Shown piece after piece: positions 11,811 to 55,405 of a stretch of 64,000 bases of DNA. The translations under genes and the position numbers were made by a program. The notes below the pieces were generated by a model that saw only the letters and a program-made list of their open reading frames with translations, did not search any database and was not told the DNA's origin. Source of the DNA: Terebella lapidaria (lineage: Eukaryota > Annelida > Polychaeta > Terebellida > Terebellidae); NCBI GenBank assembly GCA_949152475.1, contig OX424562.1:992001-1056000 (forward strand), given 5' to 3'. The number at the start of each line of letters is the position of its first letter. Within the stretch, counting starts at the first letter, position 1.

Positions 11811-13320
11811 GTAATAGGCAGATCGATGATGCCATGGATCAGATGCGGTTGTCTCCCGCTCCGTAGAGCTTGTACGGTCCGGGATCCCGCAACTCGAGGT
11901 TGCGGAGCGCGGGCTCCTTCCTAAACGTTCCGGCGGCCACGAGGGTCACCTCCGAGCCTGAGTCTACGAGGAACCGGACCGGCTCCTGTCCGAAGGACAG
12001 GGGCAGGTACCAACAAGGGTCCCTCACCAGCGCGCAGGTAGGGCGATACCTTTCACACGCGCTGGGCTCATCTACGGAGTCCTCGCCATCCGCCTCAGCC
12101 GCGGAGGAGCTAGACTGATCTCCAAGGACTACTTCCAGAGAAGTCATATCTACTTGGGGTTCGTCCTGCTCATCAGCGGGTGGGGCGGCATCGTTTGCCA
12201 CCGAACAACTATCCCCGGACGCGGGGGTTGGACATGACCAGGGCCCCACCCAGCACGAGCCCAGTTCCTGCGGCGAAACTGCTCACGGGTTGCACTATAC
12301 ACGGTCGACCATCGAGGGGCATGCGGGGACGACGCGGCCTAGCCTCAATGATCATCTCACTCGTCGGTGGCACTACTACAGTGCGCGATGCCCGCATTTG
12401 GAATGAATGCATCGGGCCCGAGCGGAAGAGGAAGTGTGTGTCCTTTCCCATCCGGAATTCGCCAGCACTAAAGTTGGCGGTCACCCGGTGGACCCGTAGA
12501 AAATTCATCCCAATAATCCCGGCCGCTCCGATATCCGCCACGATCGCCTCTGTCCGATACACCTTGTCCCCAAGGGTAATAGGCAGATCGATGATGCCAT
12601 GGATCAGATGCGGTTGTCTCCCGCTCCGTAGAGCTTGTACGGTCCGGGATCCCGCAACTCGAGGTTGCGGAGCGCGGGCTCCTTCCTAAACGTTCCGGCG
12701 GCCACGAGGGTCACCTCCGAGCCTGAGTCTACGAGGAACCGGACCGGCTCCTGTCCGAAGGACAGGGGCAGGTACCAACAAGGGTCCCTCACCAGCGCGC
12801 AGGTAGGGCGATACCTTTCACACGCGCTGGGCTCATCTACGGAGTCCTCGCCATCCGCCTCAGCCGTGGAGGAGCTAGACTGATCTCCAAGGACTACTTC
12901 CGGAGAAGTCATATCTACTTGGGGTTCGTCCTGCTCATCAGCGGGTGGGGCGGCATCGTTTGCCACCGAACAACTATCCCCGGACGTAGTGTTGGTCGCC
13001 ACCACGTCCGGATCTAGTTTCCCTGCCGCGGGTTCCGGCTCTGCTGTCCCGGAGGACCAGACCGGAAGGAACTCCTCCGTTGCGGGCCAGGGAGGGCTCC
13101 CTGGTATCCACGCGACCGCAGGCGTTCCAACAACTCCGGACACTTCAGCCAAAAGTGTCCCCGCTTTCCGCAGAAGTAGCAGGGACGGTTCTGAGCTGGT
13201 CCGGAGGTGAACGCGCAACATTCTGCGGGTCCCGGAGCTTCGATCCCGGCGCAGTGCGCAATCATCTGCGCGGCGCCGAGGTCGTATTCCTCGATGTCGC
13301 ACTCGTCCGAGGACGAGCAC
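11477..13320 (-). pseudogene. Gypsy 1 retropepsin-like protease, duplicated and frameshifted
   Basis: The aspartic protease motif FLVDSGSEVTLVAAGTF is encoded twice, once in each duplication copy (frames 11839-12249 and 12604-13320). The second half of the fold (ADIGAAGIIGMNFLRVH) follows in a shifted frame in both copies (11477-11797 and 12209-12562), with the break just left of each LYGAGDNRI. In a working element the dimeric protease cuts the Gag-Pol polyprotein. Here neither copy reads through. The right-hand copy is preceded in frame by the Gag tail, so it is the one in the original position. Confidence 0.8.
11505..12986 (-). repeat. 717-bp tandem duplication of the protease region in gypsy 1
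   Basis: 11505-12221 and 12270-12986 are nearly identical (three differences noticed by eye), offset by 765 bp, with a 48-bp unrelated spacer at 12222-12269. Each copy carries the protease active-site segment and the same frameshift just after it. The shared frameshift shows that it existed before the duplication, unless a later conversion copied it. Confidence 0.9.
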
Positions 13321-15395: not shown

Positions 15396-15532
15396 CAGCT
15401 TTATTTTTGGCCTTATCTCTTTCTTTCGTCATGGTTTACGAGTTGTCCTTGAGGAGCGGGCGATCCCCAGGGACGAAGGAGGCTACAATGCTGTGACGGT
15501 AGGCTGCGATGAAACACTGTCGGACTGATCCT

Positions 15533-15545
15533 GGTCACGGCACCA
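15533..15545 (-). promoter_or_regulatory. Primer binding site, tRNA-His type
   Basis: On the minus strand, one base after the 5' LTR, the sequence is TGGTGCCGTGACC. The first 12 bases are complementary to the 3' end of metazoan tRNA-His including CCA. This is where minus-strand DNA synthesis would start. Confidence 0.7.
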
Positions 15546-15546
15546 A

Positions 15547-16282
15547 TGTAAAGTTATTGACAACCGTCCGCTCTTCGGGATCCTCGAGGATAGTCCTCTC
15601 TCATCCGAGTCCTTGCGGACGCGCATCCGCTATTCCGGATCCCTGCGGTAGGGCCGCTCACCGGAGGTCGCTGCGGACACGGTAACTACTTCAGCATTAA
15701 CGGTAACCAGGTAACAGCCCACCCGACACTCCCAGGCCTACGGACACCGTTCAGAAACTGGTTCATCACCACGGTGTTAACTGGAGGGGCCTGGCGAGCC
15801 GCGGTCTGCCTCGGGGACGGAACCCCGTACAGTCCGACATGCTGGCCAGAGCCTCTGTCACACGTCCCGGGAAGGGAGAGAACTGGCGATCCACAGGGCG
15901 TACGCCCCCGAGTCAGCAACTTGTCTCTCCCAGCCCGGGCCTCCCCATGGAAATCGTCCCCAGGGCTCTAGGAGCCCTCTACTCAGACCCAGGGAACACA
16001 AAGCTCATGGCGAGCCTCGTGTGCGTGCTAGTCTCGATCTCTCGGACAATCTCCTCGATCGAGTCGCTTCCAGTGTATATATAATACACCACAAGCTGTA
16101 GGGCGAACGCGAGGTCTAATCGATCCATTGTTATAGTTTACTGGAGCGTAAATTACAATGCGTCGCCGTGGCAACGCACGCTCGAACGGAGCGTGTCAAA
16201 ACAAGGCCAAGTACGAAAAGGCCACATAAATGGCATTTATGTTTACAATCACCTGCCGCGTGCTTAGGGCAAAATCGCCACA
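15547..16282 (-). repeat. 5' LTR of gypsy element 1
   Basis: 736 bp, pairs with 4609-5344; see that entry. It carries the promoter for the minus-strand transcript in this class of element; no particular promoter motif was assigned. Confidence 0.93.
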
Positions 16283-17040
16283 TATAGTTCTTGAACGAGA
16301 ACGTATTGCTTAAATAATATGACGTATGTATTCATCAGAATCTCTTCAAATCTACACACTCTTTATGATATTATATTGTATAAAAATCAGTTGAACACTG
16401 ACAGAAGGGGTCAAAACGCTGCAGTCCCTGTATTGATTTTCTGCTTGGCAGGGGGTGAGAGGGTGCACAATGCTATGCGGAAATATTTTTTCTAGCGGAT
16501 TTGTCCCGTTCGATGCAGTTTGACGAAAATTTCACCCCAAAACGTTGTTTCCGTGTCGAGTACTATATGTAGGCCTATATATGTGAATATAGGGGCTAAG
16601 TGTACAAGTTTAATTTATTTAGCATATTGAATTTATATCGACGAGCTACCGTGCATAATTTTTATTTGCTTTGTGGGGGTCGGAGAGCAGCTGTAGTAAC
16701 TTCAAATTGATATTGGCCTTGAAGTTTTTTTTTCATTTTGGGTCTGGAAATACACAGAATTAGTCCACAGAATTAACCACAGAATAGTGGGAACCCTGTT
16801 AATATAAATGGGGTATGTCATGATTAGAAACCTCAAATAAATTTCCCATACCCAACACTGGGATCAAGCTACACATTGCTAAGAGGCGACACATGTCTTT
16901 TACTTTATTTCTTGACACTTACTTTCTATACAATGCTTCATCTTTCATTCACCCCCACTTCAAACCCTCATTTACCCCATTCCGAGTTTTTTCAGACGTT
17001 TTGATTATAATCGAGCGATATTTGTGTTTATCCAATTTAT
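16283..17040. other. No gene seen
   Basis: AT-rich flank of the gypsy insertion with no supported feature apart from the TATA target duplication at its first four bases. Confidence 0.4.
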
Positions 17041-33278: not shown

Positions 33279-33283
33279 AGTGT

Positions 33284-34893
33284 GTGAAATGTAGTTGTTT
33301 CTACTGTACACCTGATAGAATTAGTATACAACTGCCCAACAACCTATGGAAATAATTAGAAATCCGAAACAAACCCCATGGAATAGATATATGACAAGTA
33401 CATAAGTACCTAATCACAAGCCAAAAGGCTACTGAGTTGATGGTATCCTCGGGGACAGACTTAACGTCCACCAGCAGTGACACCGGCTCAGTGGTATGAA
33501 TGTAAGTGTCAATCTATTACCACCAATACAGCCAAATTTTGATGAATCCAATTACAAACGTAAAACACAACATTTTGCAATAGAAACAAAGCCCGACCAA
33601 ATACTTTATCAAAAGACACACTGGCGTTATCAGGGGCAGACAGTGTGTGAAATGTAGTTGTCTCTACTGTACACCTGATGGAATTAGTATACAACTGCCC
33701 AACAACCTATGAAAATGATTAGAAATCCGAAATAAACCCCATGGAATAGATATATGACAACTACATAAGTACCTAATCACAAGCCAAAAGGCTACTGAGT
33801 TGATGGTATCCTCGGGGACAGACTTAACGTCCACCAGCAGTGACACTGGCTCAGTGGTATGAATGTAAGTATCAATCTATTACCACCAATACAGCCAAAT
33901 TTTGATGAATCCAATAACAACGTAAAACACAACATTTTGCAATAGAAACAAAGCCCGACCAAATACTTTATCAAAAGACACACTCGCGTCATCAGGGGCA
34001 GACAGTGTGTGAAATGTAGTTGTTTCTACTGTACACCTGATGGAATTAGTATACAACTGCCCAACAACCTATGAAAATAATTAGAAATCCGAAATAAACC
34101 CCATGGAATAGATATATGACAAGTACATAAGTACCTAATCACAAGCCAAAAGGCTACTGAGTTGATGGTATCCTCGGGGATAGACTTAACGTCCACCAGC
34201 AGTGACACTGGCTCAGTGGTATGAATGTAAGTATCAATCTATTTACCACCAATACAGCCAAATTTTGATGAATCCAATAACAAACGTAAAAAAACAACAT
34301 TTTGCAATAGAAACAAAGCCCGACCAAATACTTTATCAAAAGACACACTGGCGTCATCAGGGGCAGACAGTGTGTGAAATGTAGTTGTTTCTACTGTATA
34401 CCTGATGGAATTAGTATACAACTGCTACTGAGTTGATGGTATCCTCGGGGACAGACTTAACGTCCACCAGCAGTGACACCAGCTCAATGGTATGAATGTA
34501 AGTATCAATCTATTACCACCAATAGAGCCAAATTTTGATGAATCCAATAACAAACGTAAAACACAACATTTTGCAATAGAAACAAAGCCCGACCAAATAC
34601 TTTATCAAAACGCACTTCCGCACTTCCACATGTGAGTTGATGGTATCCTCGGGGACAGACTTAACGTCCACCAGCAGTGACACCGGCTCAGTGGTATGAA
34701 TGTAAGTATCAATCTATTACCACCAATACAGCCAAATTTTGATGAATCCAATAACAAACGTAAAACACAGCATTTTGCAATAGAAACAAAGCCCGACCAA
34801 ATACTTTATCAAAAGACACACTGGCGTCATCAGGGGCAGACAGTGTGTGAAATATAGTTGTTTCTACTGTACACCTGATGGAATTAGTATATG
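33284..34893 (+). repeat. 363-bp tandem repeat array (orientation A), about 4.5 units
   Basis: Each unit contains GTGAAATGTAGTTGTTTCTA, GGAATTAGTATACAACTGCC, GTACCTAATCACAAGCC, GGTATCCTCGGGGACAGAC, GTGACACCGGCTCAGTGG, AACATTTTGCAATAGAAAC and ACACACTGGCGTCATCAGG. Period is 362-363 bp. Units near 34425 and 34612 are shortened; at 34612-34634 a foreign CGCACTTCCGCACTTCCACA replaces repeat sequence and resembles the solo-LTR flank at 48163-48175. Recurrent ~60-codon frames in the units are by-products of the repeat, not genes. Confidence 0.9.
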
Positions 34894-34966: not shown

Positions 34967-35152
34967 TGTTGGGGACGCTATGATTTTTGTAAAGTAAAAG
35001 ATGGTTTTATGTCGTCAGACGAATGGAGAGCATCAATAGAGGCCTTGAGTGATGACATGGAAAACTGTCAAAATGCAATAGGGGAAATTGCTAAGGTGTA
35101 TGAAAAGTTGGTAAATATCTTTACAAAAGAGGTTGATAAATATGTATACAAA
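34967..35152 (+). pseudogene. LINE ORF2, left part (before the LTR insertion)
   Basis: Encodes FMSSDEWRASIEALSDDM and IFTKEVDKYVYK, the stretch between endonuclease and RT domains. It matches in frame with the continuation at 45259. Confidence 0.65.
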
Positions 35153-35389
35153 TGTTGTGGGGCACGACCTGGGCGGGTAATGATCAGCTTACCAGTTGGC
35201 TGGAGCGATGCTGTTCCCGTGTTGTCGGTCTGGTGTCCAAGTAACTTCTGGTTGTCCAGGTCGAGTTTCCGGCGGTTGTTACTGACACTCGCGAGGTGGC
35301 AGCACTTGCCGGGTGAAGTTCCCCAGACTAGACTGGTACGGTCAACCCGACTTGAATCAGGTATCCCAGTGGCAGGTCATTTCACCACA
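35153..35389 (-). repeat. 3' LTR of the TatD-bearing element
   Basis: 237 bp, TGTTGTGGGG...CACCACA on the plus strand. It contains a degenerate member of the stem-loop family (loop CTTGAA at 35351-35356, arms ACCCGA/TCAGGT). Confidence 0.93.
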
Positions 35390-35433
35390 CTCTCCTCCGG
35401 TTTCTTTTGGTGACGAGCAGGGTCTGAGGAAAA

Positions 35434-35539
35434 GTACTAGCTAGGACTAGTGCTGTGGAGGGTGTCGGCAGATGTTCATTCTGATGATCGATACTGGCTA
35501 GGACCAGTACCAGGAACGGTGCTGGCTGGAACCAGCACC
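35434..35539 (-). other. Three stem-loops with CTWGRA loops after the TatD ORF
   Basis: Plus-strand coordinates: 35434-35453 (7-bp stem GTACTAG/CTAGTGC, loop CTAGGA, one G-T pair); 35492-35509 (6-bp stem TACTGG/CCAGTA, loop CTAGGA); 35518-35539 (8-bp stem GGTGCTGG/CCAGCACC, loop CTGGAA). They lie between the TatD stop and the polypurine run, so on the element transcript they would be in the 3' untranslated region. The stems differ but the pairing is kept, which suggests selection on structure. Confidence 0.7.
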
Positions 35540-35555
35540 TCGGGTTCCACGGGAC

Positions 35556-37322
35556 CTACAGCCGGAAGAACCGCATGGCGTTGCGGCATCCCAGTTCCAT
35601 GATCAGGGCAGCTGGCAGGTTTTTTGCTTGTCCGACGGAGATGGCCACTAGATCCAGTTCCCAGGGATGAGCTGACTGATACGGAGCATCCGACTCCAGC
35701 AGGATACGGTCCAAATCCATAGCCTGGATTAGCGGTGTTTGATCCTCGTCGCGGATTTTCTTCCCGAAGCCGAAGACGACATTGGGGAAGGCTGCCACCC
35801 ACAACGGCATGTCCTGTAAGCTATGGAAGCAGTGCACGTAAATTTTGTGCTCGGCAGGTACGACCTCCCCTAGGATTCGGATGCAGTCATCCCGGGCGGT
35901 AACAGAGTTGGCGCGATCCGGTCGGCAGTGAATCACGAGTGGCTTGTCCATTTCCACTGCTAGAGCACTCACCTCGCGAAGGTATTTCCGCTGGAACCCT
36001 CTCTGGAGCGGGCAGGAGTGGTGATAATAGTCGAGTCCGACCTCGCCTAATGCTACACATGTGGGTGATCTGGCGGCTTCTCGAAGCTTGGGGAAGTGGC
36101 CTAACGGCAGCTGATCACTAGCCACGTGTGGATGAGCTCCGAGTGTGAACCGCAGGCGGTGGTCCCGTATCAGGATTGGCAGGAAAGTGTCGGCAGAGGG
36201 AAAGTTGAGGGAGACGATCAGCCGATCCAGCTCGAAGCGTGAGGCGGGGTCGAGGCGTGTGATGCGCAGCCGGTCTTCCAGTTGATGCCTCGAGTGTACT
36301 CGATGGCGATCCAACAGTTTTTCTAAATGTACGTGGCTGTCAATTCCGTACACTGTGATGCACCGTTCCGGATCCTCTAACGATGCCCGACGGAAGTCTT
36401 CACGCTGAGGTGGGGAAGCCTCCTGCAGGAGCAGCAGCACGATCTTCCAGTGGAAAAGGGTCTCCAGGTGTGATGGGGGCTGAATGGAGTAGTTCACAAC
36501 CGAGCGAGAACCCGGTTGCAAAGCTCTGCCTAATATGCTGAGGCACAGATGTTGAGAGGTGGGGATATCTCCAATGGCGTCAGGGGGAAACAATTGACGA
36601 CGTCGAACATCAGCAAGCAGCTCGCCGGGGGTGTCGAGGCCACTGTAGCGAACAAGCCGGTCTAGCAGCCCTTTCATTGAGGCGATCCATGCACGGAGGC
36701 GGTTTCCGTCGAATACCGTGTCGTGTCCCTCCCCATGCCTGGCCCGTAAGAAACAGGCGGCGCTTTCGTTGACGTGGCAGGACCAGCAGGCGTGCTCCGG
36801 CACGAAGAACCAGGGCATGTGGAAGGCCTCTACGTGGCGGCATAGCTTCGCTGTCTTCTTGTCACAAATAGGACACCACGAGCGACGGCTTGCTTGAGAT
36901 CGGTGGGCGGACGTTGAGGCGCTACCCTGGCTTGAACCAGGTAGGTTCCTCCTTTCGGGTCGTGAGCCCTGATGAGAAGCGGGTGGATCTCCCAGACGCT
37001 GGTGCACTGGAACACGGACTGATGCTGGGCGTTCAATCCTTTGGTGCAGGCGAGCATCACTCCTGGCCGACTGCATTCCAGACCCAGACGCTTGATCGAT
37101 CCGTGACTCTCTCCTCGGAGGGTTGCGGGTCGTTGATGGAGGGTCCCGTGCCCTGGCCCGGCTCGTACCAGACCGTACAGGGTGGCGGCCACGAGATCTA
37201 CCACGAACCGCATGACCCCTTTCATGACGCCATTCGCGTGCCTCCTCCTCCTCCTCTTCCTCTTCCTCGTAATCAGGACGAAACTTCGATTCATCCATCG
37301 AATCCATTTTATAATCTAACAA
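35556..37322 (-). CDS. TatD-type metal-dependent nuclease with N-terminal zinc fingers (retrotransposon-borne)
   Basis: 588 residues, uninterrupted. Residues 19-27 are a glutamate run encoded by a simple repeat, followed by a basic Arg/Ser/Pro-rich region to ~148. A C2H2-like finger follows (C150, C153, H163, H168), then a Cys/His cluster (C179, C182, C190, H196). From ~325 there is a TatD fold with every expected metal ligand: DSHVH (H330, H332), GEVGLDYY (E427), PLVIHCR (H465), YVHCFHS (H497), LLESDAPY (D545). TatD enzymes are Mg-dependent nucleases acting on DNA ends; activity here is inferred. The ORF starts about 330 bases after pol ends, same strand, inside the LTRs. It may be made from a subgenomic RNA. 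The start could be M1, M6 or M9. Confidence 0.9.
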   Translation of the reverse strand: MLDYKMDSMDESKFRPDYEEEEEEEEEAREWRHERGHAVRGRSRGRHPVRSGTSRARARDPPSTTRNPPRRESRIDQASGSGMQSARSDARLHQRIERPASVRVPVHQRLGDPPASHQGSRPERRNLPGSSQGSASTSAHRSQASRRSWCPICDKKTAKLCRHVEAFHMPWFFVPEHACWSCHVNESAACFLRARHGEGHDTVFDGNRLRAWIASMKGLLDRLVRYSGLDTPGELLADVRRRQLFPPDAIGDIPTSQHLCLSILGRALQPGSRSVVNYSIQPPSHLETLFHWKIVLLLLQEASPPQREDFRRASLEDPERCITVYGIDSHVHLEKLLDRHRVHSRHQLEDRLRITRLDPASRFELDRLIVSLNFPSADTFLPILIRDHRLRFTLGAHPHVASDQLPLGHFPKLREAARSPTCVALGEVGLDYYHHSCPLQRGFQRKYLREVSALAVEMDKPLVIHCRPDRANSVTARDDCIRILGEVVPAEHKIYVHCFHSLQDMPLWVAAFPNVVFGFGKKIRDEDQTPLIQAMDLDRILLESDAPYQSAHPWELDLVAISVGQAKNLPAALIMELGCRNAMRFFRL

Positions 37323-37652
37323 AGGGAATCCTCATTGGAATCATGGTCGTATTTGCAGCGATTTAATTCATCCGTTACTAATATTAAGATATACCAGCTC
37401 AGAACCAGTATTGTTTATCAATTAAATCAGTATTATGTTCGGAAATACGGATTTACCAGGGGGAGAATCAGCACCCTTTACAGATTTGAGAATAAAAAAA
37501 AAAAATAATAATAATAATAAATTCTCAAATTAAATGACATACATTCTCACAGCTTCCAGAGCACGTATTCACAATGCAGATAATAAAACCATCACCTGTG
37601 TGATATAACAAAACTTGAATATACATATTTTACAATGTATGTACACCAATGT
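37323..37652 (-). other. Spacer between pol and the TatD ORF
   Basis: 330 AT-rich bases with an A run and ATA repeats at about 37493-37522. No ORF. A splice acceptor or internal promoter for the TatD ORF would be expected here, but none could be assigned. Confidence 0.4.
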
Positions 37653-39813
37653 TCAGAAACATTCGTAATCATCCAGCCGCAAAGGTTTCTGTATTCTGCG
37701 ACCACGACGTGTAGTCGTTATCTTCTCTTCGACGGTAGTGTCATCACTATCAGATTCCGACGAGAGAGATGGACTTCCCGGGTCTATGTCGATTTTACCA
37801 AACAACTGCTCCAGGTGAGTAGATTCGATTGCAGAATCAGGGTCATCTTCATCGGATCGATGATGGTTTTCAGAGCCACCTAGCAAAAGGCTTCTTTTCC
37901 TGCGAATCCAAAGTGGAATATTGCGATCTTCACAAACCCGCAGTCGATCATGGTGAACCACTTTGCTTCGATCTCGGCGTCCTTCAATCGCATACAGCAC
38001 TGGAGAGTGGGCTTTGACTACCAGGTATGGTCCAGTGTAGACTGGTTGGAGCTTACTGCTTCTCCCGATTTTAGTGCTACTGTCCAATAAATATACAAGA
38101 TCACCAGGTTCATAGGTGCGCTGTCGTAGCCGCTGGTCATAAATGGCCTTCTGACGATTCTGCTGAACCTGTAGAGTTTCTCGGGCTCTGTCATGTACCT
38201 GATGCATGTTCTTCAACAGAGTCTGTATGTATTGTGGAGGTTCCGTGGGTGTGGATGATCTCAAGCCGAACAACTCCTGAGGTAACGACACTTCCCGGCC
38301 CAACATCATCATGTTTGGAGTAAAACCCGTTGAGCGGTTCACCATGCTGCGTGCAGCCATACCCACAAAATGCAGGCAAGTATCCCAGCTTGTTTGATCT
38401 TCTCCAATGCAGCACCGTATCATCTGCAATACCAAACGGTTATACCGCTCCACTTGGGCGTTGGAGCAGGGGTGATATGGTGTGGTCCTTGTTTTGGCAA
38501 TCTCAAGGGCGTGGCACATCGACTGAAAGAGAATACTTTCAAAATTCCGACCCTGATCGGAATGTAGAAATGTCGGAATACCGAAACGGGCTAGAACCTG
38601 TTTTATCAACACATCTATTACTACTTCCGCTGACTGTTCAGCTACTGGATGACACTCTAACCACTTAGTGAATTGATCCACTATCATAACTACGTATTTA
38701 TTTCCTTTGTCACTCTCGGCGAAAGGACCAAGAATGTCAATATGTAACCGTTCCATGGAATACCCTGCATGGCAGCTTCCCAGACGCGCTTTAGGTTTAA
38801 CAGAAGGTTTCTTGCTGCGGTTGCAGACGTCACACGTACGAACATAAACATTGATGTCTTGTCGCATTTTTGGCCAGTAGAAGGATGATTTGAGACGGTC
38901 GAAGGTGCGTTGTTGTCCCGGATGTCCTGCAGATTTCTTGTCATTAGCCAGGTCAAGTAGTTCGGCTCTTAATGATGAAGGAACCAATAGTTTAGGCGAA
39001 GAAGTTTCTCCGTCGATCCAGAGATAATACAAGACACCATCCCGAACCTGTAGGAGGTCATGATTTGTCCAGAGACGTTTTACAGTCGGACCTTTGAGAG
39101 AGAGTTCTTCGGGAGTTGGAATGTAGTCAGTCTCAATCCAAGTTAACAGAGGACCTAGGGTCGGATCGCCAACTTGTGCAGTTCGCAACTCTTGCTTGGT
39201 GTATTTAGCTAGAGACAATGAATCTTCGGCATTGTTAGTTGGAACGTCTGTGATGTCAGTAACGGAACGGACTCCGATGGGAACAACGTCGTCAACGTCT
39301 TCTGTGAAGCGACCCCAGTTGTCATGTGCTCGACGACAATAAGAGCATCCCCCACAAGGTAGAGACGCCGGCGATTTACCAGCATCATAACAGTTACACA
39401 CAGTAGTAGAATCCGTCATTCTCGAAAGAACATCAGCATTTTGATGTTTTCGACCGCTGCGATGGAGGATTTTCATGTCGAATTGACTAAGTTCTTCTAA
39501 CCAACGAGCCAGTTGACCTTGGGGATGTTTGAAACGCATCAACCATACGAGACTATGATGGTCTGTTCTCACGATGAACATCCTGCCAAGTAGGTAGTGA
39601 CGATATTGACGAGTGAACATCACTATGGCTAGCAACTCCTTCCTGGTCGTACAGTAGCGTTTTTGTGCGTCAAGCAACGCTTTGCTAGCGAAAGAAATTG
39701 GTCTTTCAACTCCATCTTGAACTTGGTACAGAGCTGCCCCAATAGCTACATCAGAGGCATCAGTGTCGAGAATGAATTCTCCATCTTTTTCAGGGAACGC
39801 TAATACCGGATAG
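37653..39813 (-). pseudogene. TatD element pol: RNase H and integrase
   Basis: The RNase H start (ILDTDASDVAIGAAL, left of 39813 in this frame) precedes the 674-codon open frame that begins at 39677 with LDAQKRYCTTRKELLAI. The integrase has the zinc-binding segment (GHPGQQRTFDRL ... CDVCNRS), and the DDE core is complete: HIDILGPF, HSDQGRNFES and NAQVERYNR. The C-terminal domain has QPVYTGPYLVVK. The break from the RT frame near 39815 removes part of the RT-RNase H connection and shifts the frame, so RT and integrase cannot be made as one protein from this copy. The integrase on its own looks intact. Confidence 0.85.
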
Positions 39814-41937
39814 CTAGCAATGTTGATGTTCAGGGAGCCAGTCTAAGTTTTCAGGAGCTTTAGATCCAGTGAGCTGATAGAGGCAATGTGAAATCGAGGC
39901 ATAATCTTGAAGGAAATCACGATGGTAATTCATGAAGCCAAGAAATGCAGAGAGCTCTTTTTTTGTGGACGGACGAGTCCAATTTTCGATGACACTTAGT
40001 TTCTCTTTGGAGACGTGCACTCCTTCACCATTAACACGTCGACCGAGGAAGTCTACTTCTGTCTTGAAAAGGTGACATTTCCTGGGTTTGAGTTTGAGAT
40101 TGTACTCCCTGAAACGTTTGAAGACAGTTTGCAGATTAACAATGGCTTCTTCTAAGGTTGCTCCCAGGACGATCACATCATCGAGGTAGGCTAGAACCTC
40201 CCTCCAGGTCAGACCTTGTAGGACCAGAAACATCCCTCTCTGAAATGTAGCTGGTGCATTGCAGAGACCAAAGCTCATTCTGTTGTGTTCAAATAAGCCA
40301 TACCGGGTAATGAAAGAAGTTTTCGGTCGATCCTCAGGTTCGATTTCAATCTGCCAGTAACCCGCAGCTAAATCGAGAGTGCTGAAATAATGAGCGCCAC
40401 TTAATGTGTCGAGACAATCTTCTATTAGGGGGAGAGGAAAGGGCCTGGCTAGCACCAGATCGAGGCTCCGTCTTGACATCTGCTGATGACGTGGGATCCC
40501 GGCTTGAACCAGAACGCTTTGTGTTACCATAAAGGTATCTTTCACTGTTTTGGCGTTGAGTTCCCGATAATCAATGCAATATCGGACCGACCCGTCTTTT
40601 TTCCTCACGAGGACTGGAGCGGAGGCGTATTCAGAGTTGGAAGGGGAAATAACACCTTCACGTAACATACTCTGCAGATGTTGTTCTTCTTCAGCTTGGA
40701 AACTGATTGGTGTACGACGCATCTTCTGTTTCACAGGAGTTGGATCATGTAGTCGAATGTTGTGGCGAATGTCAGAAAAACAACCCAGATCTAGATCGTG
40801 ACGTGCGAAGACGTCAGCAAAGTCGGTCAACATCGCGGCGACCCGTTGGTGATGTTCTGGTGCTAGATCAGTGATGCTGTCAGCGTAGAGCCCTCGTACA
40901 TGCTCTGGCACAGTGTAGTTGTTGTCACTGGGGGCCAGGCTTTGGATGGCATAATCACCGTTGGTGCACGGTAGGTTGTTTCCATTCCTGGGCGCCAGGG
41001 AAGCAGATTCTGCGGTAGCAACTGTGTGTCCCTTATTCAGTGTTATCGGGTCTTTCCCGACATTGATAGCTCTGATTTTGACCGGTTGGGTAGTCTCGAC
41101 ATATATTCGTGGAAGAAACAACGAGTCATGTTGACATGGTTCTATCAACATTGGCATGTCGACATCATGGACGAAACCACACGGTAACCAACAGCTTTCA
41201 TTTGGAGGCAGTGTTATATTGTTGGAGACAATGACTTGATTTACCAGCTGGGGTGCTGAGGTATTACCTTTTTTCCAGCAGGCGAGCACCTGCTGTTCAG
41301 CGGGTTTACCTAGTGTAAGCTGACAATGTTGGAAATCAATACTACTGTCGTATTTCTTCAGAAAGTCATTTCCGAGAAGCATGTCATCATTCAGGGGAGC
41401 AGTTACCAAGGTACAGTCATAGTTACGGCTGTTGATTGTTAACGGAATGTTAGTAAATCGTTTCCCTGCTACAAGTCCCTTCTTAAATGCGCTTCGAAGT
41501 GTCACGGTGGTGAAGTCAGAAGGCAAATTACAGTCATTTATTACAGATTCATTCAGAACAGTTACATCTGCAGCAGTGTCTAGGATGGCTTGAAGTTTCT
41601 GCTGATTTATCATAACTGGGATGATCATCGCACCACTGGACTGAGGCGTAGTAACTTGTGCTGTAGCGGGGGTAGTTGATGGACCGTCAATGTCAACACT
41701 AGGATGTTGATGTCCCGCCATGGACGGTGAGGGTGTTGATGTGGATGTGGATTTAGGTAACCTCGCTGGAACCAGGTTGCTGTCATCCACGCTCAAAATG
41801 TTGGTTCGCTGATGGCCTTTCAAAGAGGTATGGACCAGGCCATGGCCGGAGGGCTTGGTCCAGTTTAGTTTTCCGGACTGGCTTTCTTCTGAGGGCAGTC
41901 CCGTGCATAGTGTCCAATTTGTTGACATGCGTGACAT
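39814..41937 (-). pseudogene. TatD element pol: protease and RT, with a 31-codon insertion in RT
   Basis: 707 codons. The retropepsin motif ILDTAADVTVL lies at residues 118-128. RT motifs are YASAPVLVRKKDGSVRY, DYRELNAKT, TLDLAAGYWQIEI, MSFGLCNAPATFQRGM and LAYLDDVIVLG, an intact YxDD. Between DTF and FPLPLIEDCLD, 93 extra bases (40438-40530) add 31 codons copied from gag. The ORF overlaps the end of gag by 73 bases in the -1 frame, the usual arrangement for frameshift expression. The frame ends in TAG at 39814 within the RT-RNase H connection. Whether the enlarged RT can fold is doubtful. Confidence 0.88.
40438..40535 (-). repeat. 93-bp gag segment inserted in RT
   Basis: 40441-40533 is identical by eye to 43250-43342 in gag. 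AAAGG lies at both edges (40438-40442 and 40531-40535), and the net gain is 93 bases, a multiple of three. The segment contains two members of the stem-loop family (loops CTAGCA at 40449 and CTTGAA at 40503). Confidence 0.85.
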
Positions 41938-43850
41938 TTGGAATCACGTGGACTAGGTGATGGTGATCGGGCTTGGACCCGATTATACTGTGGACTATTT
42001 GGACGTGCACTATTGGAGCTCCTTGGAGAAGGAGATCTCTGTCTTTGGTCAGAAAACTTCGTCCTGGGTTCGGAGCAATCTTTGATGAAATGTCCAGGTT
42101 TTCCACAGTTGTAGCACACGTAGCCAATGTTTCCAGCACGTTGAGTCTGTTGTTTAAGGAATTCCAAGAACAGTTTTTGCTGTTCTTGCGGCTGTTGCAT
42201 GATCTGCTGTTGCTGTTGTAGAAACTTAGTCATGGAGTTATCTGGTGAGACAGGACTGTTGCTTGGGGACGTACGGTTTGTGGGAGTGTTAGTGGATCGT
42301 AATGATACCCCGGCGACGTCCAACAATTCGTCCTCAAACATTACCTGTCGTACAACAGACGGCTTTATATTGGCAGCGCGATAGTTTTGCTGTGTCCTCT
42401 TCATCAGCTTCAAAGCCTTTGGAATGGTTCGAGGATTTTTTTCCATCATCAAGAAAGATGCCCTCGAGTCTTTGCAACCCCGCAAGAAAGCTTCTACGGC
42501 CATTGATTGGATTAAGCGGTCGTCTCCTGTTGGAAAGCTTTCCACCGCTAAAGCGTACACCTTGTCGGCGAAGTCGTCAAGAGTTTCAGTCTCGGTCTGT
42601 TTAGCCTGTCGTAGCTCCTTCCTGGTTTCCAGAGGAGTTTCACTGCGGCCGTAGCGCTTCTTGAGGCTTCTTATCAAGCTGTGGAAGTCCTGGCGTACAG
42701 CACGTGGTAGGTGTTGGACAAAGTCGACAGCTTTTCCACGTAAACAGCCAGCCAATCGTTCTCGCTTCTGACGGTATGTCCAGCGACCAGCTCTGCTAGT
42801 TTCCTTGAACTGGAAGTAGAAAGAGTTCCATTTTTTCAAATCTCCATCGAAAGTTTCCATCCGAGGCAGGTTTGTTGGAGTTGTGTTGCGATGTGCCCCG
42901 TCACGGCGACGACCGTGTCTGTGACCAACATCTACTTCAGCTTCTGATTCCGTCGAAGAGTCTGAATCCTCTCCGTTTTGGTCCTCCTGTTCGCTACTAT
43001 CAGATTCTTCCGAAGTTGAAGAGGAGCTTGCATTTTCTTCCTGCTTGGGTGGTTCAGTCTTGTGTGTTCTATGTCGTGTGTCAGTTTCCTTTTTTATCGG
43101 TTGATCTCCCCTAGTATTGTGCTTGTGGTCTCGGGCCCGTGGGCTAATATCACGACCAGATTTCTTGGCGAGAGATTTACCACCTGGTGACGCTCGAGAT
43201 TTCACCGGCCGTTGATCGGAAGTGGAATCTTTTGATTTCCAGACAGATTGGGCCTGGCTAGCACCAGATCGAGGCTCCGTCTTGACATCTGCTGATGACG
43301 TGGGATCCCGGCTTGAACCAGAACGCTTTGTGTTACCATAAATATCATTAGCAGGATATTGCGACATCATGGAAGCCAGAAATGGGTCCTGAGGGGTAGC
43401 CCTCGTAGCCCTCGCCATATCTTCCTCCTTTCTTTGTGTGTTTTGTTGCAGGATCATTTGGGCAAACTGTTGATGGAAAACTTGCTGTTGTTCTTGATAA
43501 ACACGTTGTTGTTCCGTCAAGTTGGTTAAGCTAGCCATCATTACTTGTAGGATCGATTTCAGGCCAGCATCTGGTGAACTATCCTCTCCAGGTAGTGAGT
43601 GTGCTGATCCTGTGTCGATGTTTTCGGGCGAAGCCCCGGTCAAGGTCTCAGGGGACTCACTCAAAGGTGCAATCACATCATTGGCGATTAGATCTTGAAA
43701 CGTACGGGCTGGTATTCCCGTCGCCAACACCAGTACCTCCATAGTAATTGGACTTGACTGCAGGCTGATTAGTTTCCTAGCCTTTGCTTTCCCGATTTGA
43801 GGTAAAGTTTCCAACTCAGCTTGAGTTGCAGTTTGCAGGTTAATCATCAT
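41865..43850 (-). CDS. TatD element Gag with N-terminal helix-hairpin-helix and two zinc knuckles
   Basis: The open frame extends to 43964, but the first 38 residues include a run of lysines from a poly-A tract, so the ATG pair at 43850 (MMINLQTA) is the better start. Directly after it, INLQTATQAELETLPQIGKA matches the ComEA-type helix-hairpin-helix, a non-specific DNA-binding fold. A Ser/Asp/Glu-rich region and a retrotransposon capsid core follow (WNSFYFQFKETSRAGRWTY, GCLRGKAVDFVQHLP, RKELRQAKQTETETLDDFAD). Two CCHC knuckles end the protein: CYNCGKPGHFIKDC and CHACQQIGHYARDC. Gag would package the RNA. It is uninterrupted and overlaps pol at its end. Confidence 0.87.
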   Translation of the reverse strand: MMINLQTATQAELETLPQIGKAKARKLISLQSSPITMEVLVLATGIPARTFQDLIANDVIAPLSESPETLTGASPENIDTGSAHSLPGEDSSPDAGLKSILQVMMASLTNLTEQQRVYQEQQQVFHQQFAQMILQQNTQRKEEDMARATRATPQDPFLASMMSQYPANDIYGNTKRSGSSRDPTSSADVKTEPRSGASQAQSVWKSKDSTSDQRPVKSRASPGGKSLAKKSGRDISPRARDHKHNTRGDQPIKKETDTRHRTHKTEPPKQEENASSSSTSEESDSSEQEDQNGEDSDSSTESEAEVDVGHRHGRRRDGAHRNTTPTNLPRMETFDGDLKKWNSFYFQFKETSRAGRWTYRQKRERLAGCLRGKAVDFVQHLPRAVRQDFHSLIRSLKKRYGRSETPLETRKELRQAKQTETETLDDFADKVYALAVESFPTGDDRLIQSMAVEAFLRGCKDSRASFLMMEKNPRTIPKALKLMKRTQQNYRAANIKPSVVRQVMFEDELLDVAGVSLRSTNTPTNRTSPSNSPVSPDNSMTKFLQQQQQIMQQPQEQQKLFLEFLKQQTQRAGNIGYVCYNCGKPGHFIKDCSEPRTKFSDQRQRSPSPRSSNSARPNSPQYNRVQARSPSPSPRDSKCHACQQIGHYARDCPQKKASPEN

Positions 43851-45020
43851 CTTCTTTTTTTTTTTTTTTTTTTTTAATCTACTTGTAAGCAGTAACACAG
43901 CAGAAGCTAATACGTAGACGTATATGATTTTATTTCTTATAACATACAAGAAATGTTTGATCACTTTGAATAAATTACTGCAAATAAGCTACATTACACA
44001 AAGTAAACTACCTATAGCCTCATCAACGCATGACGTACATGAAACAACAAAAACTAATGATCACAATATCGCTAATCGCAGTACGTTACAACATACAAGT
44101 CCAAAATTTCCCGTACAATAGGTTTATAACAAGAAATACAAAACTTAGCGTGAAAAACTACGAAATAATTATTATCACAGATCACATTGAGTGATGTAAA
44201 CAAATTTAGAAATATGATAACATTAACAATATAGATATTCTAAATGATGACACGGTACCACAATAATTCCTGGCGAGAACCAGAATTAACAAAAATAATA
44301 TAATTCCCGGCTAGGACCAGAAATAGCTAAAAAAACTAAGTCTAGGTTATTCTGGCAGTTATTTCTTGGCTAGAACCAAGATTAATCAGATATATGTCAA
44401 CCAGTCATTTATGAAAAATAATGAATAACAAACATTTTGTTCAGCCAGGTATTTTATTTTGAACAATTACAAATTGGCACGAACATTTCACCAGATGAAA
44501 ATTCAGATATCGTATTATGAGTACAATGTTACGAGTGCTGATTCCCAAACTCAATATTACGCGAATATTGAGCGTAATAGTCGCGCAATAAATCGAATAG
44601 ACATGTATTAGATCTAGACTTATGTCAGATTCACGTGCGTACTCACGAATCTAGATCGTAGATGAACAAGTCGAAATCCAAGTCAATCCAAGAATTTATG
44701 TCGCAGAAGAATTATTAAACAAGTGTCTATCCGAAACTATAGATGTCAAACTGTATATTCGAATATGTATTTAAGATAGAACCGGACTAGAATCCGATGT
44801 ATTTTGAATTTTCCGCTAAATTGAAAAAATTGGAGATCTTCAGCAATGGCTGCTTGGGCGGAAGGGGCGATAGCCAATCAGAAATTGTTTCAGATCACGT
44901 GACTATTTGTTGATATCTCGAAGTTGCAGACGAAATTACCGCATTGATCCAGGAATTTCCTTGATAAATGCGTGTGAGAAGACACAGTAGGCGCAGAAGT
45001 TCGATCACTTCTGACACCAG
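43851..45020 (-). other. Leader of the TatD element with stem-loops
   Basis: Non-coding 5' region of the element, including a poly-T run (poly-A on the transcript) at about 43855-43876. Stem-loops of the CTWGAA family: 44264-44288 (9 bp with one bulge, loop CGAGAA); loop CTAGGA at 44311 with weak arms; 44364-44381 (TCTTGG/CCAAGA, loop CTAGAA); 44783-44796 (CGGA/TCCG, loop CTAGAA). On the transcript these would be in the 5' untranslated region, where packaging signals are commonly located. Confidence 0.6.
45006..45019 (-). promoter_or_regulatory. Primer binding site, tRNA-Leu type
   Basis: Minus-strand TGGTGTCAGAAGTG begins one base after the 5' LTR and is complementary to the 3' end of metazoan tRNA-Leu (CACTTCTGACA plus CCA) over its full 14 bases. 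Confidence 0.8.
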
Positions 45021-45257
45021 TGTTGTGGGGCACGACCTGGGCGGGTAATGATCAGCTTACCAGTTGGCTGGAGCGATGCTATTCCCGTGTTGTCGGTCTG
45101 GTGTCCAAGTAACTTCTGGTTGTCCAGGTCGAGTTTCCGGCGGTTGTTACTGACACTCGCGAGGTGGCAGCACTTGCCGGGTGAAGTTCCCCAGACTAGA
45201 CTGGTACGGTCAACCCGACTTGAATCAGGTATCCCAGTGGCAGGTCATTTCACCACA
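45021..45257 (-). repeat. 5' LTR of the TatD-bearing element
   Basis: 237 bp, pairs with 35153-35389; one difference seen (A at about 45080 versus G in the other copy). Confidence 0.93.
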
Positions 45258-45258
45258 C

Positions 45259-47733
45259 AAAATAAAAAGTACAACACCTGGTAGGATGAGGAAGCTTAAC
45301 AAACCCTACTGGACGGAAGAACTAAGTTTTATGTGGAAGAAAATGTGGACTGCTGAGAAAACATATCTAACTTTCAATGGGTCGGACTCACAGAAAAAAG
45401 AATTTAGACAACATTTTATAAAATGTAGACAGGTGTTCGATAAACATCTTCGTAATGCAGAACGCAGATATAACCGAGAACAAATAAATAGTATAGAGGA
45501 TGTGTGTACAAATAACCCCAATGAATTCTGGAAAACCCTGAAGAAATTAGGACCCCCCAAAAAAAAAAAGATTCCCCTTCAGATTAAGCAAGGAAATGAC
45601 ATTGTCACTGACTCAATTTCAGTTTTGAATATCTGGAAGGATGCATTTGCTAATTTGTTCAGTGGAAATAACATGAATCTAGAATATGACATGTTATATC
45701 AAAATATACAAATAATGTTGAATTCAAGGGAAAATATGATGTCCTCAGTGTATTATAGTGAAAATGTTGTTATTAACAATAATATATCCAGGGAAGAGGT
45801 GAAAATTGTTGTATCCAAACTGAAAAACAAGAAATCCTGTGGTATGGATGGTATCTCTAATGAATTTCTTAAGCATGATAACGTGCTCGATGTACTGGTG
45901 TCTTTCTTCAATTTATGTTTCAATAACAACTGTATACCAACTGAGTGGAAACAAGCTATGATCAAACCAATACTTAAAAACCCTAGTAACGATCCGTGTA
46001 TACCAATGAATTACCGAGGTATCAGCTTACTGTCTTGTGTAAGTAAAGTCATGTCTGGTATTCTAAATAACCGTCTGATTACATATTGTGATGATCTAGA
46101 TGTCATTGTGGATGAACAAAATGGATTTCGAAAGGGTCGGTCGTGTCAGGAACATATATTCACTTTGAACAGTATTATCAGAATCCGAAAAAATTGTGGT
46201 CTATCTACCTTTGTCGCATTTGTAGATCTAGAGAAAGCTTTTGACTGCATCGATAGAAATTTATTGTTCTACGCTTTGTTAATTTATGATATTGATGGAA
46301 AACTGTATAGGATCATAAAAGAAATGTATACTGACACTAAAGCCTGTCTCAATATAAATAATTTGTTATCCGGTTGGTTTGATAGATCCAGTGGTGTGAG
46401 ACAAGGAGACAATCTGTCACCATTTTTGTTTGGTCTTTTTATAAATGGTTTAGCTCAATGTATAAATCAGTTAGGAAAAGGTATCAATATTGAAAATGGG
46501 ATGAGTAGTATACTGTTGTATGCTGATGACATGGCTCTTGTTGCCGGTAGTGAAAATGATTTGCAATGTATGTTGGACTGTATGCATGGTTGGGTGAATG
46601 AATGGCATTTGAAGGTGAATATACAAAAAACACAAATTGTCCATTTCCGTCCAAAGCGTAAGACTTGTACAAATCATGCTTTTATATACGGTGATAGGAA
46701 TATTGAGATTGTGAAGGCATATAAATATTTGGGTGTTTATTTTGATGAATTTTTAGATTTTGGAAAGTGTGTTGAAGTATTAGCTGAATCTGCAGGTAGA
46801 GCATTGGGCGGGGTGATTGCAAAATTTAGTTTACTTAGAGACTGTGGTTACAAAACTTATACGAAATTGTTTGACTCTGGTGTTTTGCCTATACTGCACT
46901 ATGGAGGTGAGATATGGGGTTATGGAAGATATGCAAAATGTGATGCCGTTATGAATAGACCGATGCGCTTTTTCCTAGGAGTACATAGATTTGCCCCAAC
47001 GGTTGGGGTACTCGGAGAAATGGCATGGATACCATTGAAATATAGGCGATATATAATGTTACTAAAATTCTGGAATAGACTTGTAAAAATGGATAATAAT
47101 AGGTTGACAAAAAAGGTTTTCCTTTGGTCTTACCATGCAGTTTCTAGTAATTGGTGTACTGATGTAAGATGTATTGCTGAGAAATTAGGATTTATGAATA
47201 TTTATAATAATATGGGTCTATTTAATGAACATGAGGTATATACTGTATGTTTTGACTTGATGTGTGCTGAATGGTATGTTGAAGTACAATCAAAACCGAA
47301 ACTGAGAACATATAAGGAGTTTAAAACAGAATTTTATGTAGAACCCTATGTGAGTAATAATATTTCAAAAAGCCTACGTTCGCTTCTTGCTCAGTTTAGA
47401 CTAGGAATCTTGCCCATTCAGATAGAAACCGGTCGCTTTACCAATATATTGGATTCGATAACAGGTTTGTAGAGAAAAATGAACGCTGATGAAAGACTTT
47501 GTAATATCTGTAAAAATGGCCAGGTTGAGGATGAAAAACATTTTATTTTTGTATGTGATAAATATAGTGATGACAGAAAACACTTTTTTGATTATTGTAA
47601 TCGAGTTAACCCAGATTTCAATGCTCTCACAGAAATAGATAAATTGATATTTATGTTAAAATACGAATGGAAATCAGCAGCAAATTTCATACTCAAGATT
47701 TGGCAGAAACGTAAAACCCTTGCATATATGTAA
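45259..47733 (+). pseudogene. LINE ORF2, right part: reverse transcriptase and C-terminal zinc knuckle
   Basis: Continues the LINE after the LTR insertion. RT motifs in order: MNYRGISLLSCVSK, VDEQNGFRKGRSCQEHIF, FVAFVDLEKAFDCIDR, SSGVRQGDNLSPFLFGLF, LLYADDMALVAG (intact catalytic box), then VKAYKYLGVYFDE. After NWCTDVR, a TAG at 47470-47472 interrupts the frame. The same frame then continues to 47733 with a C-terminal knuckle, CNICKNGQVEDEKHFIFVC. Without the LTR insertion and the TAG the RT region would be open, so this was a fairly young LINE when it was hit. The clade is uncertain. Confidence 0.85.
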
Positions 47734-48273
47734 ATTCCGGCCGTATAAACACAATTTTGTTGAACCGACTGTTATATGTCAATGAATAATCCTGTCACTA
47801 ATAAGCCCTCCAAGGGCTGGATGCTACTGATGATTTTAATGTTATCTGTTATTTTTTCTTTATATGTATGCATGTGTGACGTTAATAAACAAATACTACT
47901 ACTACTACTACTTTACGTTTGTTATTGGATTCATCAAAATTTGGCTGGTAATAGATTGATACTTACATTCATACCACTGAGCCGGTGTCATTGCTGGTGG
48001 ACGTTATGTCTGTCCCCGAGGGTACCATCAACTCAACAACCCAACAACCCTGTTGAAAATTTGGCTGTATTGGTGGTAATAGATTGATACTTACATTCAT
48101 ACCACTGAGCCGGTGTCACTGCTGGTGGACGTTAAGTCTGTCCCCGAGGATACCATCATGAACGCACTTCCACATGTGCGACACAGGCTCTAGCGGACAC
48201 TCAGCAGTGACCTTCGGTGAGCGGCTTATCCGCGAGGATCCGGAATAGTGGACGGTGTCAAACTTTACATACA

Positions 48274-50690: not shown

Positions 50691-51190
50691 TCATCAATCT
50701 GATAGCGGTTGTAATGTGTCAATGTAAGTATCAATCTATTACCATCAACAGTCAGATTTTGATGATGCCAAAAACAAGCGTAAAATAGAACATTTTGGAA
50801 TAGAAACAAAGCCCTACCAAATAGTTTATCCAAAGACACACTGGCGTCGTCAGGGGCAGAGAGTGTGTTAAATGTAGTTGTTTCTACTGTACACCTGATG
50901 AAATTAGTATACAACTGCCCAACAACCTATGAAAATAATTTAGAAATCTGAAACAAACCCCTTGGAATAGATATATGACAAGTACATAAGTACCTAATCA
51001 CAAGCCAAAAGGCTACTGAGTTGATGGTATCCTCGGGGACAGATTTAACGTCCACCAGCAGTGACACCGACTCAGTGGTATGAATGTAATTATCAATCTA
51101 TTACCATCAACAGTAAGATTTTGATGATGCCAAAAAGAAACGTAAAATAGAACATTTTGGAATAGAAACAAAGCCCTAGAAACAAAGTCC
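50691..51190 (+). repeat. 363-bp repeat, diverged subfamily, about 1.3 units (orientation A)
   Basis: Matches the main array but with TCAACAGTCAGATTTTGATGA and AACATTTTGGAATAGAAAC in place of the usual text. 61055-61265 has the corresponding GGAGGGCTTTGTTTCTATTC form inverted, so at least two sub-lineages exist. Confidence 0.8.
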
Positions 51191-52989: not shown

Positions 52990-53118
52990 GAGAACTGCCA
53001 TGCCAAGTATGCTAGCATAAGCATTTGGCATAACTTAGCATTAGGCATAAACTATCATACATGCTAGCATCATTAGCATACATCAATGAACATGCTAGCA
53101 TCAAAACATGCTAGCATC
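52990..53118. repeat. ATGCTAGCAT palindromes
   Basis: Several copies of the perfect 10-bp palindrome ATGCTAGCAT or close variants, with ATTTGGCAT words, fill the join between the two minisatellites. Confidence 0.7.
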
Positions 53119-53119
53119 A

Positions 53120-55150
53120 GGTCAGCCAGTGACCTTACACCTCCAGCCACTCACCTTACAACTCCAGCCAGTGACATTACACCTCCAGCCAGTGACCTTA
53201 CAACTCCAGTCACTCACCTTATAACTCCAAACAGTGACCTTACACTTCTAGCCACTCACCTTACAACTCTAGCCAGTGACTTTACACCTCCAGCCAGTGA
53301 CGTTACACCTCCAGCCACTCACCGTTCAACTCCAGCCAGTGACCTTACACCTCCAGCCACTCACCTTACAACTCCAGCCAGTGACTTTACACCTCCAGCC
53401 AGTGACGTTACACCTCCAGCCACTCACCGTTCAACTCCAGCCAGTGACCTTACACCTCCAGCCACTCACCTTACAACTCCAGCCAGTGACTTTACACCTC
53501 CAGCCACTCACTTCACAACTCCCGCCAGTGACCTTACACCTCCAGCCACTGACCTTACACCTCCAGCCAGTCATCTTACAATTCCAGCCAGTGACCTTGA
53601 ACCTCCAGCCAGTGACCTTACACCTCCAGCCAGTCACCTTACAACTCCAGCTAGTCACCTCACACCTCCGACCATTCACCGCACACCTCCAGTCATTCAC
53701 CTTACAACTCCAGCCAGTGACCTTACACCTCCAGCTAGTGACCTTAGAGCTCCAGCCATTCACCTTAAAACTCCAGCCATTCACATTACAACTCCAGCCA
53801 GTCACCTTACACCTCCAGCATTCACCTTACACCTCCAGCCAGTCACCTTACACCTACAGCCAGTCACCTTACACCTCCAGCCAGTGACCTTACACCTCCA
53901 GCCAGTGACCTTACACCTCCAGCCAGTGACCTTACACCTACAGCCAATCACCTTACACCTCCAGCCAGTCACCTTACACCTCCATCCAGTCACCTTACAC
54001 CTCCATCCAGTCACCTTACAACTCCAGCCAGTCATCTTAACCTCCAACCAGTGACCTTACACCTCCAGCCAGTCAACTTACACCTCCAGCCAGTCACCTT
54101 ACACCTCCATCCAGTCACCTTACACCTCCAGCCATTCACCTTACAACTCCAGCCAGTCATCTTAACCTCCAACCAGTCACCTTACACCTCCAGCCAGTGA
54201 CCTTACACCTCCAGCCAGTGACCTTACACCTACAGCCAATCACCTTACACCTCCAGCCAGTCACCTTACACCTCCATCCAGTCACCTTACACCTCCATCC
54301 AGTCACCTTACAACTCCAGCCAGTCATCTTAACCTCCAACCAGTGACCTTTCACCTCCAGCCAGTCAACTTACACCTCCAGCCAGTCACATTACGCCTCC
54401 ATCCAGTCACCTTACACCTCCAGCCATTCACCTTACAACTCCAGCCAGTCATCTTAACCTCCAACCAGTCACCTTACACCTCCCGCCAGTCACCTTACAC
54501 CTCCAGCCAGTCACGTTACACCTCCAGCCACTCACCTTACAACACTAGCCAGTGACCTTACACCTACAGCCAGTGACCTTACAACTCCAGCCAGTCACCT
54601 TACACCTCCAGCCAGTGATCTTACACCTCCAGCCAGTCACCTTACAATTCCAGCCATTGACCTTAAACCTCCAGCCAGTGACCTTACACCTCCAGCCAGT
54701 CACCTTACACCTCCAGCCAGTGATCTTACACCTCCAGCCAGTCACCTTACAATTTCAGCCATTGACCTGAAACCTCCAGCCAGTGACCTTACACCTCCAG
54801 CCAATGACCTTACAGCTCCAGCCAGTCACCTTACAACTCCAGCCAATGACCTTACACCTCCAGCCAGTGACCGTGTACATCCACCCAGTCCCCTTACACC
54901 TCCAGCCAGTGACCTTACACCTCCAACCGATGACCTTACACCTCGAGCCGATGACCTTACACCTCCAGCCAGTGACCTTACACATCTAGCCAATGACCTT
55001 ACACCTCCAGTCAGTGACCTTACACTTCCAGCCAGTCCCCTTACACATCCAGCCAGTCCCCTTACATCTCCAGCTAATGACCTTACACCTCCAGCCAGTG
55101 ACCTTACACCTCCAGCCAGTGACGTTACACCTCCAGCCAGTGACCTTACA
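53120..55150. repeat. 21-bp minisatellite, about 95 units
   Basis: Unit: AGTGACCTTACACCTCCAGCC with variants at a few positions. Higher-order copies are visible, for example a six-unit block near 53270-53400 repeated at 53393-53500, and the stretch 54040-54165 repeated near 54330-54460. As 21 is a multiple of three, long frames stay open on both strands (plus strand 53086-54054, heptads like DLTPPAS; minus strand heptads like KVTGWRC). These frames are a consequence of the repeat and there is no evidence for a gene. Confidence 0.93.
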
Positions 55151-55405
55151 CCCGTGGTGTACTAACTCAGAGATTACCCCCTGGTAATCTGCACGGGCCC
55201 GTGGTGTACTAAGCTCAGAGATTATCCCTGACAATCTGCACGGGCTCGTGGTGTACGACTCAGAGTTTACCCCCTGATAATCTGCATGGGCCCGTGGTGT
55301 ACGAATCAGAAATTACCCCTGACGATCCACAGGGACCCGTGGTGTAAGACTCAGAGATTACCCCCTGACAATCTGCACGGGCCCATGGTGTACGACTCAG
55401 AGAAG
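55148..55405. repeat. 46-47-bp minisatellite, right block (about 5-6 units)
   Basis: Same unit and orientation as 52590-52930, directly abutting the 21-bp array. The 21-bp array therefore sits inside what was one 46-bp minisatellite. Confidence 0.9.

Follow-up and report, generated by a model that had tools for sequence, protein, structure and literature searches.

A zinc-finger-TatD reading frame as the probable third gene of a young Ty3/gypsy-type LTR retrotransposon in the annelid Terebella lapidaria

The window analysed here, a stretch of 64,000 nucleotides from Terebella lapidaria (assembly GCA_949152475.1, contig OX424562.1, positions 992,001 to 1,056,000), contains a Ty3/gypsy-type LTR retrotransposon on the minus strand, at 35153-45257 counted from the first base of the window (10,105 bp). 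Its integrase and its 3' LTR are separated by a further reading frame, ORF3, in which a zinc-finger region precedes a TatD-type domain. The element and its insertion site are composed as follows:

35149..35152, no strand: target-site duplication CAAA, left copy
35153..35389, minus strand: 3' LTR (TG...CA), from repeat comparison
35390..35404, minus strand: likely polypurine tract, directly abutting the 3' LTR, read by eye
35556..37307, minus strand: ORF3, zinc fingers, helical part and predicted TatD nuclease, 583 aa, stop codon included in the coordinates
35559..36344, minus strand: TatD domain of ORF3, about residues 322-583, from Pfam PF01026, invariant residues and a barrel model
36723..36875, minus strand: finger region of ORF3, C-x2-C-x9-H-x4-H followed by C-x2-C-x13-H-x3-H, read from the sequence
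37653..39842, minus strand: pol part 2, with RNase H, H2C2 zinc domain, integrase core and p58-type C-terminus, from Pfam
39814..41943, minus strand: pol part 1, with aspartic protease and reverse transcriptase, from Pfam and frames
40441..40533, minus strand: 93-bp exact copy of a gag segment in the reverse transcriptase frame, holding two hairpins
41865..43850, minus strand: gag, with two CCHC knuckles, from its ATG and knuckles by eye, overlapping pol in another frame
43250..43342, minus strand: the gag segment identical to the 93-bp copy
45002..45019, minus strand: likely primer binding site, separated from the 5' LTR by a single base, read by eye
45021..45257, minus strand: 5' LTR (TG...CA), from repeat comparison
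45258..45261, no strand: target-site duplication CAAA, right copy

Elements of the Ty3/gypsy type (Metaviridae) have gag, protease, reverse transcriptase, RNase H and integrase in this order, TG...CA LTRs and a short target duplication. In the element described here, two near-identical TG...CA LTRs are flanked by a short target duplication, and Pfam and the reading frames gave the domain order protease, reverse transcriptase, RNase H, integrase. The LTRs are 237 bp each and differ by one mismatch; the first-pass annotation of this DNA had correctly given both this single difference and the size of 10.1 kb. The primer binding site presumably fits the 3' end of tRNA-Leu, and no tRNA gene was found in the 64-kb window for comparison with this stretch. 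The element sits cleanly within a LINE. When the flanks are rejoined, a LINE frame runs open through the site and the remaining two frames are full of stops. The insertion is young and clean. Neither a second copy of the TatD ORF nor a third LTR occurs in the 64-kb window.

The window also holds other repeated DNA. A second, GC-rich LTR-type element at 4608-16283 is bounded by 738-bp end repeats (98% identity). It also contains two 718-bp repeats (11504-12221 and 12269-12986, 99.6% identity) and gag-pol-like frames on the minus strand, the longest minus-strand frame past the integrase being 154 aa. A long tandem repeat at 53077-55403, with units near 21 bp, keeps a frame open for 325 codons (xPPASDLT-like units). 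Another tandem repeat, of about 363 bp, is present as two inverted copies (33279-34425 and 61529-62711, 96-97% identity) and as shorter pieces at 47912-48158 and 50721-51176.

The pol of this copy is broken, because its two halves occupy different frames (protease-reverse transcriptase and RNase H-integrase, overlapping at 39814-39842). This damage had already been noticed, and the exact copy of a gag segment within the reverse transcriptase belongs to the same picture. ORF3 is intact. It lies on the gag-pol strand between the integrase and the 3' LTR, as was reported earlier, and the earlier description was upheld in that the env slot of a young LTR element is occupied by a TatD domain whose ligands are complete. 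The frame is open from stop to stop over 35556-37331 of the minus strand (591 aa), and translation from the first ATG at 37307 gives 583 aa. The earlier figure of 588 codons was therefore right in describing an uninterrupted frame but started upstream of this ATG, and 5 must be subtracted from each of its residue numbers. When the TatD frame was shuffled 1000 times by mononucleotides, the longest open run on the sense strand was 275 codons, so the length of the frame is not due to chance.

The only significant Pfam domain in the ORF is TatD_DNase (PF01026, E 5.7e-31, profile positions 1-252 of 253); Amidohydro_2 stayed below the cut-off and a DEDDy exonuclease domain is absent from ORF3. The Class II ligands are complete (H325, H327, E422, H460, H492 and D540, numbered from the Met) and all of them are invariant in six of six aligned proteins. 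The first-pass annotation spoke of five positions while listing six residues. The domain was modelled as a TatD barrel. Judged from its sequence, ORF3 encodes a TatD domain with complete Class II active-site motifs.

The Cys/His finger region at the N-terminus, also seen in the first pass, is of the C2H2 type. A protein search, in which 7994 candidates sharing most words with the query were compared, gave at least five matches (P0001-P0005), among which P0004, from a sea slug, is the only one with a named source; P0001 and P0002 are encoded on ENA contigs of up to 7,095 and 11,915 bases, respectively. Overall identity to ORF3 is 33% for P0001 and 29% for P0002. The first finger motif is kept in both and the second largely so. 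The finger and helical part of ORF3 aligns with P0001 over 176 of 181 residues (E 3e-27), P0002 shares the first half of this part (91 residues, E 5e-14), and P0003 and P0005 match the N-terminal part weakly (2e-4 and 5e-5). The host-like P0004 has a long N-terminus of its own, but the N-terminal part of ORF3 is not shared with it (E 0.12). Since this part is common to P0001 and P0002 and missing in P0004, the fused form is older than the insertion. The earlier proposal of a captured host TATDN gene, if read as the recent capture of a plain one, is not supported by this distribution. ORF3 is, on the evidence of these alignments, a member of a zinc-finger-TatD family rather than a newly made copy of a host TATDN gene.

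A search with residues 130-330 alone gave no match among 641 candidates; it was evidently insensitive, since P0001, which matches directly there, was not returned. A profile search added four further proteins whose alignments cover no more than 27-28% of the query, and among them P0008 contains other enzyme domains. A distant TatD was encoded in 2 of the 50 stretches of viral contigs that matched the patterns of alignment A1, and the integrase half gave no match to viral contigs. A single one of 49 BFVD matches reached E <= 0.001, a giant-virus protein. Of the prokaryotic matches, none of the 80 listed (of at least 518 confirmed) starts before residue 266, and these 80 therefore leave the fingers uncovered.

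In a tree of 28 TatD rows, ORF3 and P0001 form a pair at 100/97, and ORF3 with P0001-P0005 is split from 22 bacterial-side rows at 99/97. The narrower group of ORF3, P0001-P0003 and P0005, which excludes P0004, was obtained at 91/70 only, and a 9-row tree joined ORF3, P0001 and P0002 at 97/96. The split in the 28-row tree fits an animal source for the TatD domain. Direct capture from bacteria is disfavoured by this split and by the listed prokaryotic matches, which end short of the fingers. Because the end branches are long and the trees held no named TATDN1, TATDN2 or TATDN3 sequences, ORF3 is not called TATDN2 here.

Dispersed along the sense strand of the element are hairpins that have in common a six-base loop of the form TNCNNG, in most cases TYCNAG. 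They occur downstream of the ORF as well as in the LTR, the leader and the coding parts. The noncoding sites, together with the use of more than one reading frame in the coding parts, show that they are not a peptide repeat. Three of the stretches concerned are:

35433..35539, minus strand: downstream of the ORF, three TNCNNG hairpins, loops starting at 35531, 35503 and 35446
36497..37175, minus strand: stretch of the TatD ORF, three sense TNCNNG hairpins, loops starting at 37167, 36936 and 36510
44266..44800, minus strand: leader, four TNCNNG hairpins, loops starting at 44792, 44375, 44316 and 44279

With the strict loop T[TC]CNAG and a required stem of 4 (the stems found have 5-9 pairs), the element has 13 hairpins on the sense strand, or 11 with the LTR and 93-bp repeats counted once, and none on the antisense strand; 300 shuffles gave a mean of 0.41 and a maximum of 5. 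One such hairpin occurs in the other 53,895 bases of the window, both strands included, and none in the element at 4608-16283. For the loop TNCNNG the counts are 20 sense and 5 antisense (shuffles: mean 2.4, maximum 9). Because the motif had been noticed before any loop class was chosen, all these statistics are post hoc; the fairest of them is the count in which the loop was taken solely from hairpins outside the TatD ORF, with a stem of at least 5. This class has 18 members on the sense strand of the element (15 without repeats) and 1 on the antisense strand; beyond the element, one strand has 0 and the other 4. The TatD ORF contains two sense members, with 0.053 expected and 3 of 5000 synonymous shuffles as high, and also the sole antisense one. 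In gag there are three (0 of 5000 shuffles as high), and the RNase H-integrase part has none of this class and none with a stem of at least 5. When the classes are compared within the TatD ORF, the loop TNCNNG gives three hairpins (synonymous-shuffle P 0.002), two of which belong to the narrower outside-defined class, and the strict loop gives one (P 0.062, not significant). Two 12-pair hairpins, one sense and one antisense, lie in the ORF at 36510 and 37112; because of the antisense hairpin the strand bias is weaker within the ORF. A count of stem covariation is partly built in, because the search itself required stems, and the case for the hairpins rests on their excess over shuffles and on the strand bias instead. 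An Rfam match to SNORD35 on the antisense strand (E 0.083) was below the gathering score and was taken as chance.

The composition of the TatD ORF differs from that of the rest of the element. Its GC content is 0.578 vs 0.47-0.48 in gag-pol, and its codon use correlates with the gag-pol pieces at 0.01-0.22, the values among these pieces being 0.31-0.52. Both features favour a foreign origin at some time. That the ORF is nevertheless resident in the element is suggested by the hairpin class, which continues into it, and by the N-terminal architecture conserved elsewhere, and we consider it probably a resident gene, ORF3, common to a family of such elements. The main alternative, which we regard as unlikely, is a one-off transduction in which a host zinc-finger-TatD gene was taken up by template switching and is carried as a passenger useless to the element. 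The GC content and codon use are what such an event would leave, a single copy is known, from a 64-kb window, and host-gene capture by LTR retrotransposons has been reported in plants (PMC7264820). The ORF is also intact while pol is broken; with one LTR mismatch there has been little time for decay, and intactness therefore proves nothing either way. A passenger would not be expected to share the hairpin class of the other parts of the element, although this argument is post hoc. Moreover, the polypurine tract and the 3' LTR follow the ORF in the normal abutment, and no poly-A was seen by eye after its stop, although a T/A-rich tract does occur in the spacer before the ORF.

ORF3 would be expressed from a spliced or otherwise separate message, because it has its own ATG, 345 bases past pol. 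A pyrimidine-rich, acceptor-like stretch ending in TAG just upstream of this ATG and a GTAAG in the LTR, both noted by eye, make a spliced message possible. During reverse transcription or integration, nucleic acid of the element would be held by the fingers, and the Class II TatD site would shorten its 3' overhangs or single strands or incise it at abasic positions. Because the cDNA of retroelements passes through hybrid intermediates and has extended ends, a finger-held accessory nuclease would find its simplest use there. The activities described for relatives are of a suitable kind: E. coli TatD digests ssDNA and RNA as a 3'-5' exonuclease and shortens 3' overhangs to 2 nt (PMC4176340), and human TATDN1 and TATDN3 act both as 3' exonucleases and as AP endonucleases, cutting dsDNA at abasic sites (PMC10085689). 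We offer the action of ORF3 on the element's own cDNA or RNA only tentatively.

Two other substrates were considered for a resident enzyme, and both appear rather improbable. As a TATDN2-like enzyme, ORF3 would strip RNA from hybrids or R-loops of the element cDNA or at insertion sites. HxH is the Class II motif, common to TATDN2 and TATDN3, and the long N-terminus of the host-like P0004 recalls that of TATDN2 in higher eukaryotes (PMC10085689); TATDN2 itself has been described as an R-loop resolving enzyme (PMC12754012). However, the trees did not fix the orthologue, and the element already has an RNase H domain of its own. The enzyme might, with a similarly small likelihood, instead serve against host defence, cutting not element DNA but host nucleic acids used in sensing or small-RNA silencing. 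The degradation of ssDNA and RNA by E. coli TatD (PMC4176340) would permit this, and some TatD orthologues are virulence factors with which parasites cut host extracellular DNA traps (PMC10085689), but a feature linked to defence was not seen in the element.

The remaining explanations concern the ORF as such. The GC step at the ORF could mark an assembly join or a further mobile sequence lodged within the element, but the same strand, the correct slot before the polypurine tract, the hairpin class held in common and the single ORF copy and two LTRs of the window make this very improbable. An envelope-like protein for cell entry, which has only the position in the slot in its favour, was rejected as scarcely credible, since ORF3 has a TatD enzyme domain and no membrane-type segment by hydropathy, its highest 19-residue value being 1.23 where the usual membrane cut-off is near 1.6.

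The reading that we prefer as a whole is that of a zinc-finger-TatD ORF3 in a Ty3/gypsy-type LTR retrotransposon, fused before the insertion, resident and serving the element as a nuclease; we judge it about equally likely to be right or wrong in all its parts together. A wider version would assume an animal retroelement family, spread across several lineages, with zinc-finger-TatD as a standing third gene and with element RNA marked along its length by the common hairpin, which would be recognised by proteins of the element itself, through the knuckles of Gag or the fingers of ORF3, and would let packaging or the nuclease distinguish self RNA from other RNA. This extension is speculative and we do not think it likely.

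LTR elements are thought to need gag and pol only. Rotifer elements have DEDDy enzymes as ORF3. If the preferred reading is true, TatD would add to them a nuclease type of a different family in this role, which would suggest that a nuclease aids some step of the retroelement cycle, and the TatD ORF3 offers a tractable single-enzyme test of such help. Invertebrate genes annotated as 'TatD' or 'TATDN2' may then partly be genes of mobile elements. If the hairpins are sites for Gag or ORF3, the idea of many small packaging signals would extend to an LTR retrotransposon. Among the titles and abstract openings listed, outside subscription papers and Repbase, no earlier case of an LTR retrotransposon with a TatD gene was found, nor one with dispersed hairpins.

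The element resembles Ty3/gypsy elements (Metaviridae) in its gag-pol order, TG...CA LTRs and short target duplication, and it differs from them in the TatD nuclease ORF3 and the dispersed sense-strand hairpin class. ORF3 resembles the Class II TatD proteins (TATDN2, TATDN3, YcfH and YjjV) in its complete domain with HxH and E, H, H and D and in the modelled barrel, but it is encoded within an LTR element and has N-terminal fingers that lie outside all 80 listed prokaryotic matches. With P0001 and P0002 it shares the position of TatD behind the same finger region, and with P0001 also the whole helical part. A possible hint from another invertebrate is a figure legend in the giant squid genome report, in which the non-Hox genes situated inside the Hox cluster include TATDN2 and POGK (pogo transposable element) (PMC6962438). 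The closest precedent is provided by bdelloid rotifer LTR retrotransposons, which carry a DEDDy exonuclease (as in Vesta and Juno) or a GDSL esterase of unclear use as ORF3, for which the authors found no significant departure from neutrality (PMC5408684). The rotifer families have the DEDDy fold where the element described here has TatD, and dispersed hairpins are not described in the parts of that report drawn on here (PMC5408684). In both cases, however, an ORF3 is present beyond gag and pol and a nuclease-type enzyme replaces a bona fide env. The bdelloid catalytic residues are largely retained (DEDD to DEED), just as the ligands are complete in the ORF3 described here, and the Cys/His motif in two of the bdelloid ORF3s is analogous to its finger region (PMC5408684).
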